DNA from: Cytophagales bacterium
Lineage (GTDB): Bacteria; Bacteroidota; Bacteroidia; Cytophagales; Thermoflexibacteraceae
Assembly (NCBI GenBank): GCA_947457925.1
Contig: CANGYA010000010.1
Location: forward strand, 1-46,165
Length of the DNA: 46,165 nucleotides
Reading direction: 5' to 3'
Shown here: piece by piece, positions 20,474 to 23,039 of the stretch
Numbering within the stretch: the first letter of the stretch is position 1
How the letters are laid out: each line of letters opens with the position of its first letter
The notes under the pieces: model-generated
The model's input: the letters and a program-made list of their open reading frames with translations, nothing else
The model's database searches: none
Told to the model about the DNA's origin: nothing
Made by a program: the position numbers and the translations under genes

Positions 20474-21640
20474 TTAGTCTATCACAGGACACCGTTTGAA
20501 AGGCTTGGTTTCATCAAATAACTTGCGGTAGGTAACATGTGTTTTGTAGATAGCACCGCCTACCCACTCCGCCACTTTCATCATTTTTGGGTTAAAATCT
20601 CCTATCCACTTCATTTCCATAGTGATATACGGATACTTTGGCGTGTGTGCTACCCATGAATAGGCTTTCACAATAGCCATTTCTACCCCTTTTCCCTGAT
20701 GCTCTGGCACAACACCAAACACCACTCCTACAATACGATTAAATTTTTTGAACAATTTGTAATAAGCAAACCGCATCATTCCCAATACATTCATTTTGCC
20801 GTTGAGGTACTTCAAGACTTGGTTAGCATCTAAAATTTGCACATAAAACGCAATAGGTTCATTGTTATAATAGGCAAACCAAATGATTTTTTCATCAATC
20901 ACGGGTTTCATTAACTTAAACAAATTTTTTACTTGTTCCAACGTCAATTCCGTTACGCCTGCGTGTTTTCCCCATGCCTTATTATAAATCGTACAAAAAT
21001 CTTGTGCGTATTGCTCCAGTTTACTCAATTCTAAGTGCCTGAAACTAAAACCTTCTGTATCAATAATTTTCTGCCCTCTTGCCTCCATACGTGGGTGCAT
21101 GGGTTCTGCCAATGTCCGCCTGTAGGTGTATTGTTTAAAATATTCTTGAAACCCATACGCCTTGAATAAATCATTGTAGTAGGCAGGATTGTAGTTCATT
21201 GTATAGACAGGCTCGTGGAAACCATCTGCCAAACACCCCCACCAAGAATCCCTCGAACCAAAATTAATGGGTCCGTCCATTGCCTCCATTCCTTGTGCTT
21301 GCAGCCAATGTTTACAAGTATCAAATAATAGAAAGGCTGCTGTTTGGTCATTGATACATTCAAAGAAGCCCATACCGCCTGTAGGTTGGTCGTTATCTTT
21401 GTGTACTGCCTCTTGGTCTATAAAGGCTGCTACACGCCCAATGGTTTCGCTGTTTTCATTCTGTAATATCCAACGAGTGCATACACCATGATTGAAAAAT
21501 TTGTTCTTCTTTGGATTAAAAACATTTTCAATGTCATTGTTCAATGGGCGTATCCAATTTGTATCCCCTTTATATATTTTGGTAGGTAAGTTCAAAAACT
21601 CTTTGATATGTTGCTTTTGAGTAACTTCTATGATTTTCAT
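20474..21640 (-). CDS. GNAT-fold acyltransferase-like protein
   Basis: This 388-residue cytoplasmic protein is of a type widespread in Bacteroidota and usually called hypothetical or N-acetyltransferase. The N-terminal half includes RWILQNENSETIGRVAAFID, a GNAT-like beta hairpin. The central part has DGPINFGSRDSWWGCLADG. The C-terminal half carries VVPEHQGKGVEMAIVKAY (about residues 315-332), which resembles the acetyl-CoA binding motif A (Q-x-x-G-x-G/A). Two GNAT-like halves in one chain are therefore likely. The substrate is unknown. It is monocistronic and convergent with trxA. The fold call rests on motif A and length, so moderate confidence is proper. Confidence 0.6.
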   Translation of the reverse strand: MKIIEVTQKQHIKEFLNLPTKIYKGDTNWIRPLNNDIENVFNPKKNKFFNHGVCTRWILQNENSETIGRVAAFIDQEAVHKDNDQPTGGMGFFECINDQTAAFLLFDTCKHWLQAQGMEAMDGPINFGSRDSWWGCLADGFHEPVYTMNYNPAYYNDLFKAYGFQEYFKQYTYRRTLAEPMHPRMEARGQKIIDTEGFSFRHLELSKLEQYAQDFCTIYNKAWGKHAGVTELTLEQVKNLFKLMKPVIDEKIIWFAYYNNEPIAFYVQILDANQVLKYLNGKMNVLGMMRFAYYKLFKKFNRIVGVVFGVVPEHQGKGVEMAIVKAYSWVAHTPKYPYITMEMKWIGDFNPKMMKVAEWVGGAIYKTHVTYRKLFDETKPFKRCPVID

Positions 21641-21762
21641 GTTAAAAGATGTCCTAAATTAATTATTTGCAAAGTTGGAAACATTTACGAGTCTTAAATA
21701 TACAAAACCTTTTTTATTTCTTAACTAACTTGTCTGCACTACCTTGCTAATATATAACTCAT

Positions 21763-21835
21763 ACACACTAAAAAAGGTGACTTAAGTCATCTTTTTTAGT
21801 GTGTAAAGTCATCAAATGCAGTAGTTGAAGTCATC
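21763..21835 (+). promoter_or_regulatory. Candidate operator: three AAGTCATC repeats at 22-bp spacing within a hairpin region
   Basis: AAGTCATC occurs at 21784-21791, 21806-21813 and 21828-21835, so the period is exactly 22 bp, about two helix turns. The first copy is also half of the palindrome TGACTTAAGTCA (21778-21789). That palindrome lies inside a longer hairpin whose outer arms are ACACACTAAAAAAG (21763-21776) and CTTTTTTAGTGTGT (21791-21804). The last repeat ends 21 bases before a -7-like box. The pattern fits a regulator that binds tandem sites on one DNA face and touches RNA polymerase. Confidence 0.6.
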
Positions 21836-21856
21836 TTTTTTCTATAATTAATTCCT

Positions 21857-21864
21857 CACCTTTG
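21857..21864 (+). promoter_or_regulatory. -7-like promoter box of the stress gene pair
   Basis: CACCTTTG differs from the Bacteroidota consensus TAnnTTTG only at the first base. It lies 66 bases before the ATG at 21931. No TTTG -33 box is present at the expected place, where the third AAGTCATC repeat ends instead. This suggests an activator-dependent promoter. Confidence 0.4.
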
Positions 21865-21930
21865 TAATGTCAAGTATGACACATCACACCTAAAAAACTT
21901 GAAATAGTAAATCTTAAACCTCAAATCATC

Positions 21931-22488
21931 ATGGAAACAATAGAAAAAAACGCAAAACCCACAGCTGCTACAGACTTAGCTTTTAATGCTACTGTAGGTA
22001 TTTACACTTCACACAAAGAAGCTTTACACGCTGTGCATACATTGTTAGAAAATGGGTACAGCAAAGAGTCCATTTCTATAGTTGGTAAAAATAACTTTGT
22101 AGAAGAAGTAAAAGGAACATATAACTGGGGAGACGCAGCCGAAGAAGGTATGAAAGTAGGCGGTGTAGCTGGTGGTGTTTTAGGGGCTTTGGCGGGCTTA
22201 GGTTTAATTGTTGTTCCGGGCTTAGGCTTAATAGCCACAGGTGGTATTATGGGAGCAATGATACTTAGTGCATTGACCTTAGAGGGAGCAGCATTGGGTA
22301 GTATCGGCGGAGGTGCTTTAGGAACTCTATTAGGTAACCGTTTAGGTACAGAAGGCGTTGTGGAGTATGAAAGACACATAGACGGAGGCAAATACATGGT
22401 CATTGTGCATACAACAACTGATAATGCAAAAGCTGCAAAACAGTTGTTGCATGAAAAAACAGAACACGAACAAGTAGAAACTCACTAA
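21931..22488 (+). CDS. YflT-domain general stress protein with glycine-zipper-like membrane segment
   Basis: This is a 185-residue protein. Residues of about 19-58 (NATVGIYTSHKEALHAVHTLLENGY, then ISIVGK) match the YflT/GsiB-type 'heat-induced stress protein' domain. It continues with a very Gly/Ala-rich hydrophobic part (about 80-135: GVAGGVLGALAGLGLIVVPG, then GGIMGAMILSAL). That part resembles glycine-zipper membrane segments. The C-terminal strand-helix portion (KYMVIVHTTTDNAKAAKQLL) closes a ferredoxin-like split domain. The family is linked to general stress response, but its molecular role is unknown. The tandem operator upstream and the hairpin at 22497-22536 downstream frame it. The next gene may be co-expressed. 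Confidence 0.78.
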   Translation: METIEKNAKPTAATDLAFNATVGIYTSHKEALHAVHTLLENGYSKESISIVGKNNFVEEVKGTYNWGDAAEEGMKVGGVAGGVLGALAGLGLIVVPGLGLIATGGIMGAMILSALTLEGAALGSIGGGALGTLLGNRLGTEGVVEYERHIDGGKYMVIVHTTTDNAKAAKQLLHEKTEHEQVETH

Positions 22489-22496
22489 CAATAATC

Positions 22497-22536
22497 ATAG
22501 AAAGTAATTCGTACAAATTTACAAATTACTTTCTAT
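22497..22536 (+). terminator. Hairpin after the stress gene
   Basis: ATAGAAAGTAATT (22497-22509) and AATTACTTTCTAT (22524-22536) form a perfect 13-bp stem eight bases after the stop. Few T residues follow, so it could be an attenuator or a 3'-end stabiliser rather than a full stop before 22617. Confidence 0.5.
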
Positions 22537-22616: not shown

Positions 22617-23039
22617 ATGAAAACTGATAATTATGCTCCTGTTGCCTACTTACCTAATGCAACCTCCGAAGGTTTACATATTCACTCAAAGTCATGGTTG
22701 CAATCATTGACAATGTGGCAAGACGAAATTCGTTTTTTCAATAGTTTATTAAAGAAAACCACACCACACCAATATCACACACCAGAAGACAGCAAAGAAA
22801 AGGTAGCTGTTTTGGAACATTTGGTACGTTTAGAAAAACACTTAGTAGATAATCTCAAAAATGATGTGGTACAACACGAAAAAGAATTAGCTGCACTGCT
22901 ACAACGTGAACGTATTTTTGGCGAAGCTGAGGAACTAAAATTATACAAAGAAAAACACCAACACCTTTATGAAGAAGTACAAAACTTTGATGTGGCATTT
23001 CAAGAGTTGAAATTTCTTATTTATGAATTTCAAAAATAA
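22617..23039 (+). CDS. Small coiled-coil protein, unknown function
   Basis: This is a 140-residue soluble protein without a signal peptide. After a short polar N-terminus comes HSKSWLQSLTMWQDEIRFFN, a helix with several aromatic residues. Two charged heptad-rich helices follow (KVAVLEHLVRLEKHLVDNLK, about 61-80, and KELAALLQRERIFGEAEELK, about 87-106), and the chain ends with another helix. It therefore looks like an all-helical bundle or dimer. Small proteins of this design are frequent next to stress genes in Bacteroidota, but no established name is recognised. It follows the YflT-domain gene by 128 bases on the same strand, so joint regulation through the AAGTCATC operator is possible. Confidence 0.6.
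   Translation: MKTDNYAPVAYLPNATSEGLHIHSKSWLQSLTMWQDEIRFFNSLLKKTTPHQYHTPEDSKEKVAVLEHLVRLEKHLVDNLKNDVVQHEKELAALLQRERIFGEAEELKLYKEKHQHLYEEVQNFDVAFQELKFLIYEFQK

Follow-up and report, generated by a model that had tools for sequence, protein, structure and literature searches.

Three identical copies of a short sequence, AAGTCATC, lie between two divergent genes of a Cytophagales bacterium, and the question is what kind of regulator would read them. The window, that is the whole 46,165-nt stretch of DNA analysed, is contig C10 of a 4.86-Mb genome. A 290-bp gap separates a leftward gene for a 388-aa protein from a rightward gene for a YflT-domain protein (Table 1). The copies of AAGTCATC are located at 21784-21791, 21806-21813 and 21828-21835, and there is no further exact copy in the window. 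A sequence-only reading had suggested that they may be an activator site for a stress regulon, pointing to LytTR-type proteins as regulators that bind direct repeats at such spacing. The stress-type gene was borne out by the 'heat induced stress protein' domain of its product.

Copy number alone is a weak signal, since three or more copies of AAGTCATC were found in 11 of 100 shuffles of the window. An equal-spaced triplet of an identical non-simple 8-mer (step of 12-60 bp) occurred once in the window, as AAGTCATC, and in none of 60 dinucleotide shuffles. The strict 22-bp period is thus confirmed as real and more than chance. The first copy had also been read as part of TGACTTAAGTCA within a longer hairpin, and TGACTTAAGTCA was indeed contained in a 44-nt dyad with 95% complementary arms, which surrounds the first 22-bp tile; no second genomic copy of the dyad was found at useful similarity.

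The array itself did not recur. A genome-wide search for AAGTCATC-N14-AAGTCATC upstream of genes had been recommended; the perfect pair was present in the 4.86-Mb genome only in the window array, and the whole genome gave 38 matches with up to three mismatches versus 58 for the reversed control, so that there is no genome-wide set of 22-bp AAGTCATC pairs. The next-best pair (contig C137, locus L023) lies inside a 323-324 aa open frame and was rejected as a member of such a family. A repeat family or mobile element was also rejected, since the 190-bp region had, besides itself and its own reverse complement, only short weak genomic matches (the best being 27 bp at C76). Among 395 genomes of the class, three AGTCAT at a 22-bp step without mismatch were found in the window alone; absence of the spacing from related genomes had been named beforehand as a refuting result, and this outcome goes against the array. 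With at most one mismatch, the triple was found in 6 of the 395 genomes, and at least three of the others (G136, G258 and G421) look to the eye like short repeats. For the reversed control pattern, there were 16 places in the 395 genomes. Fifteen of these places were in one genome, G306, which therefore appears to have its own repeat with a 22-bp period. Across the 395 genomes searched, the triple array shows no conservation; the single operator, described below, recurs.

In the palindrome GGTGAC-TTAA-GTCATC, the right arm is formed by copy 1 of AAGTCATC. The exact form GRTGAC-N4-GTCAYC was found in the genome at the window and at one other place, upstream of ccoS-ccoN (cbb3 oxidase), with a COX1-family gene behind ccoS. 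The ccoS-side palindrome sits in 27 bp that are 89% alike to the window, 222 or 264 bp 5' of ccoS depending on the start chosen. Upstream of the genome's hemA, a variant, TGAT-ATAA-GTCATC, is followed after 23 bp by the box TAATTTTG, 21 bp before the ATG. An AGTCATC right arm is therefore common to three regions of the genome. At a gap of 23 from the ccoS site, the match to the box is poor (4/6). Bare pattern counts in this genome showed no enrichment: the palindrome without a box, with two mismatches, gave 148 matches versus 391 for the control per strand, and the half-site plus box gave 9 versus 7. Four of these nine matches were intergenic, and a close gene start followed only at hemA and in the window.

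The E. coli FNR site is TTGAT-N4-ATCAA. The inverted repeat, TGA core and N4 spacer of a Crp/Fnr operator were all found here, tile 1 agreeing completely and tiles 2 and 3 in part (scores in Table 1). Moreover, the site stands before cbb3, heme and low-oxygen genes, namely the genome's own ccoS-ccoN and hemA, plus genes of relatives. From these sequence features, the repeat unit is most likely half of RTGAC-N4-GTCAY, an operator of Crp/Fnr geometry with an FNR-like regulon. The array resembles the E. coli FNR class II arrangement in its two arms, N4 spacer and TGA core, with the activator centred at -41.5 (PMC3688515, available part). It differs in having C/G for T/A at the inner position, in the Bacteroidota -7 box TAnnTTTG, and in comprising three touching tiles, two of which are half-sites.

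Table 1. Features of the intergenic array and its neighbouring genes in the window; promoter positions refer to inferred starts
Feature	Position	Strand	Remark
Possible divergent target, 388-aa protein	20474..21640	-	No Pfam or NCBIfam match
Proposed left-promoter box, TATATTAG	21747..21754	-	5/6, weak; inferred start near 21742
44-nt dyad	21762..21805	.	Encloses tile 1; lies between the two inferred starts
Tile 1, AAAGGTGACTTAAGTCATCTTT	21773..21794	.	Full palindrome, 10/10 to RTGAC-N4-GTCAY; centre 21783.5
Tile 2, TTTAGTGTGTAAAGTCATCAAA	21795..21816	+	Good right arm only, 8/10; -63.5 of either promoter
Tile 3, TGCAGTAGTTGAAGTCATCTTT	21817..21838	+	Good right arm only, 7/10; -41.5 of right promoter, replaces -33 box
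Right-promoter -7 box, CACCTTTG	21857..21864	+	5/6 to TAnnTTTG; inferred start near 21869
Proposed target, 185-aa protein	21931..22488	+	YflT 'heat induced stress protein' domain
Next gene, 140-aa protein	22617..23039	+	Weak relative of 128-aa protein

The last copy had been placed where a -33 box should be, before a weak -7 box, and the sequence agrees. TTTG is absent at the -33 position of the right promoter, and CACCTTTG is the sole plus-strand box of at least 5/6 in the intergenic region. The gap from copy 3 to CACCTTTG is 23 bp, the same as in 96 of the 150 class-wide matches listed. A class II promoter has an operator at about -41.5 that replaces the upstream element, and tile 3 holds this position relative to the inferred start. 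Over this start lies a short everted palindrome, TGTCA-AGTA-TGACA (21868-21881), which may be chance.

The earlier reading did not mention that a weak box on the opposite strand also stands at the appropriate distance from the dyad. On the minus strand, the gap from site 1 to TATATTAG is again 23, and sites 1, 2 and 3 fall at -41.5, -63.5 and -85.5, so that the centre of tile 1 is at -41.5 of the proposed left promoter and at -85.5 of the right one, both counted from inferred starts. With copy 3 at gap 23 rightward and copy 1 at gap 23 leftward, the three 22-bp tiles would span two divergent promoters. The leftward box was found after the fact; boxes of at least 5/6 occur at 1.4% of window positions, and the intergenic region has six on its minus strand, so that the leftward box may be luck. 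Judged by this spacing, tile 1 may be used by a leftward promoter.

Taken together, we consider it likely that the three contiguous tiles are sites for a Crp/Fnr-family activator and form a low-oxygen class II switch of the YflT gene. The tile at -41.5, tile 3, is the weakest of the three matches, which counts against this explanation. So do the absence of a second perfect triple array among the 395 genomes, the lack of enrichment of the half-site plus box and of the palindrome without a box, the poor box at the ccoS site, the YflT homologues that mostly have no site, and the scores of the candidate regulators below the Fnr cut-off. A possible but distinctly less favoured course is that the working operator is tile 1 alone, or tiles 1 and 3, with the even spacing left by a local duplication and copy 2 idle. 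The 14 nt common to copies 1 and 3, the lack of conservation of the array and the missing left arm of tiles 2 and 3 are consistent with such a relic. However, the tiles do not agree in their left arms, and the distance from tile 3 to the single good plus-strand box is exactly the modal gap, which duplication would not set.

The gap of 23 bp proved to be widespread. Across the class, TGAC-N4-GTCA with a TAnnTTTG box 20-26 bp behind it gave 420 matches in 214 of the 395 genomes, versus 99 matches in 80 genomes for the reversed control (table summed by hand). Gaps of 20, 21, 22, 23, 24, 25 and 26 bp accounted for 4, 3, 14, 96, 23, 8 and 2 of the 150 matches listed, and the peak at 23 is beyond what base composition would give. 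In Flavobacterium psychrophilum, TAnnTTTG covers -12 to -5 (PMC9723704, in part), and a gap of 23 therefore puts the operator centre at -41.5. According to the accessible part of PMC3688515, the site lies within 4 nt of -41.5 in 19 of 23 FNR-activated promoters of E. coli. The words Crp and Fnr are absent from the main text of PMC9723704, as far as that text was available, and searches of PubMed Central, beyond which this negative does not reach, returned no article that deals with TGAC-N4-GTCA as a Crp/Fnr motif of Bacteroidota. Among 30 class loci read, 26 were intergenic and 23 had a gene start within 250 bp; at one of the class loci (L127) the nearest match was 1200 bp from the listed one. 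The targets include ccoS (L134, and L116 by likeness), Usp (L139) and a hemerythrin/ScdA-like gene (L118). They are mixed, and many of the genes have no clear oxygen link.

Within the family, the operator plus box at the fixed gap, with one mismatch, gave 46 matches versus 20 for the control (summed by hand). The genome's own count was 5 versus 2, and two of the five (C1 and C89) were inside genes. Thirty of the family loci were fetched; 24 were intergenic and 18 had a gene start within 225 bp, the targets including Usp, hemA, the 128-aa protein, PNP oxidase, Cu-ATPase and an arsC-like gene. The palindrome without a box was not enriched in the 13 family genomes (59 places versus 127 for the control). 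Twenty of the 59 places were picked by the analyst for AT-rich spacers, and they are a selected set, not an enrichment count. Eleven of the 20 precede genes that fit the regulon, and four lie inside open frames. The fitting targets are ccoG (2), Hsp20 (3), Usp, Cu-ATPase, hemA, the 128-aa protein (2) and an arsC-like protein. Products at L084, L086, L089, L096 and L097 were scanned against Pfam, as was the L102 product, the 128-aa protein, which belongs to no family there; those at L088, L090, L091, L093 and L101 were named by likeness.

The genes for the 128-aa protein in G004, G006 and G011 carry the operator and box of the class-wide architecture. The protein is 22 and 24% identical to the 140-aa protein encoded behind the YflT gene. 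A family of 128-140 aa proteins (L170, L171, L185 and the window gene) recurs behind Crp/Fnr-type promoters; it had no Pfam match (window and L102) and no NCBIfam match (window and L170). Between the YflT gene and the 140-aa gene, the scan found an AT-rich 17-pair hairpin (22497-22536) that is terminator-like on the minus strand.

Comparison of the orthologous promoters, which the sequence-only reading had recommended, gave a divided answer. Of the order's 22 YflT loci, five had a site of at least 9/10 (one each in the window, G006 and G456, and two in G475), and 17 were without one; about 0.8 of 22 would be expected from base frequencies by the analyst's estimate. In G006 (Thermoflexibacter ruber), the site at the YflT gene scores 9/10 and has TATCTTTG at gap 23. 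Four of the five family homologues had no site of at least 9/10, loci L011 and L013 had none of at least 9 on the correct strand, and the same-genus genome G001 had no YflT match. Among the named contigs with a YflT homologue, 13 of 14 were read; 2 of the 13 had a site of at least 9, one being that of G006, and 11 had none. Both YflT places of G475 (L197 and L215) have the upstream site CTGACTTCCGTCAT in common, each with a 5/6 box at gap 23. They are a duplicated promoter with a broken gene copy, since a stop interrupts the 42-aa open frame at one of them. The link of YflT to the site is patchy, yet more than local.

Candidate regulators are present in the genome, which has nine matches to the cNMP-binding domain. 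Two adjacent genes (contig C147, locus L105, 1186-2637, minus strand) encode proteins of 233 and 232 aa with Crp/Fnr domain matches, a KVCLIP Cys and a Crp-type HTH with VKETTIR. In the FNR protein, four Cys hold a 4Fe-4S cluster. The two proteins have N-terminal Cys at 11, 14, 19 and 25 and at 12, 15 and 26, respectively, plus Cys 113 and 114, which may correspond to the 4Fe-4S ligands of E. coli FNR. With scores of 72.6 and 73.2 bits, the pair missed the cut-off of NCBIfam Fnr NF008365 (228 bits) and is therefore termed FNR-like. The candidate regulator is thus duplicated in tandem, with N-terminal Cys patterns that differ between the two copies. In G010, a similar FNR-like gene follows the site-bearing Usp gene. 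The regulator is probably one of the two tandem FNR-like proteins, judging from their domains and Cys.

A Crp/Fnr relative that answers another signal (NO, redox or a cAMP-like ligand) could use the site instead of an oxygen-sensing FNR, which we consider rather unlikely. The candidates below the Fnr cut-off and the mixed class-wide targets, including the hemerythrin/ScdA-like gene, would suit such a relative, as would the motif TTGAC-N4-GTCAA that the accessible text of PMC1274295 gives for HcpR of delta-proteobacteria and two cyanobacteria, with predicted hcp/frdX targets. The Bacteroides HcpR2 motif in the same text is GTAAC-N4-GTTAC. The array is like HcpR sites in its nearly equal inner arms and in belonging to the Crp/Fnr family (PMC1274295, in the part available). 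Unlike it, HcpR has T as the outer base and hcp/frdX targets, and the array's motif precedes cbb3, heme and stress genes. The family targets cbb3, hemA, Usp and Hsp20 and the Cys-rich N-termini of the candidate regulators argue against another signal.

LytTR sites are pairs of 9-bp direct repeats at 21-22 bp. The 22-bp direct spacing fits a LytTR or other direct-repeat response regulator on all three copies, but AAGTCATC does not fit the LytTR consensus when compared by eye, the genome has no second such pair, and the unit recurs as the arm of a palindrome, being half of RTGAC-N4-GTCAY before cbb3, heme, Usp and Hsp20 genes. This makes such a regulator very improbable. Of the earlier proposal, therefore, an activator in the -33 place before a stress-type gene is supported by the modal gap of 23, and a LytTR-type regulator is not supported. 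With 20 pairs (-26.6 kcal/mol as RNA) and a T run in its 3' arm, the dyad could be taken for an RNA hairpin, terminator or attenuator. This is hardly credible either: the dyad lies between divergent genes and upstream of the inferred start of each, it is absent from the terminator scan list, and the window has no Rfam match.

Returning to the Crp/Fnr-type switch, we propose that at low oxygen an FNR-like dimer would first occupy the full palindrome of tile 1, likely the high-affinity site. Dimers on the half-site tiles 2 and 3 would then be aided by neighbours two helix turns apart and by RNA polymerase. From tile 3, at -41.5 in the place of the -33 element, a dimer would activate the YflT gene through class II contacts, and the tile 1 dimer may likewise activate the divergent 388-aa gene. 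A Crp/Fnr dimer site spans about 22 bp, and contiguous tiles would therefore touch. The E. coli ndh gene has tandem FNR sites. Like E. coli yfiD and ndh, the array would have one site near -41 and another further upstream that modulates; unlike them, it has gapless 22-bp steps and half-sites, and its far tile is maybe part of a divergent promoter. An upstream FNR site can damp the yfiD promoter, as the title of a reference in PMC3688515 indicates, and tile 1 may therefore tune the response.

We put forward tentatively, as the less probable outcome, a shared array in which three Crp/Fnr dimers sit side by side, the palindrome nucleating two half-sites, with the end tiles at -41.5 of divergent promoters and one block driving both. 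The type of switch is known; the packed touching array looks unusual. If true, this array would represent an especially dense form of the class-spanning class II architecture (TGAC-N4-GTCA, 23 bp, TAnnTTTG), which was not found in the literature searched. The array lends itself to asking whether Crp/Fnr dimers in contact assist one another in occupying half-sites, and whether they serve two promoters. For this class of Bacteroidota, a candidate rule is that a Crp/Fnr-type operator 23 bp before TAnnTTTG marks a promoter in which the operator replaces the -33 element. With such a rule, sequence alone would serve to read these regulons in a phylum in which they appear to have received little study.
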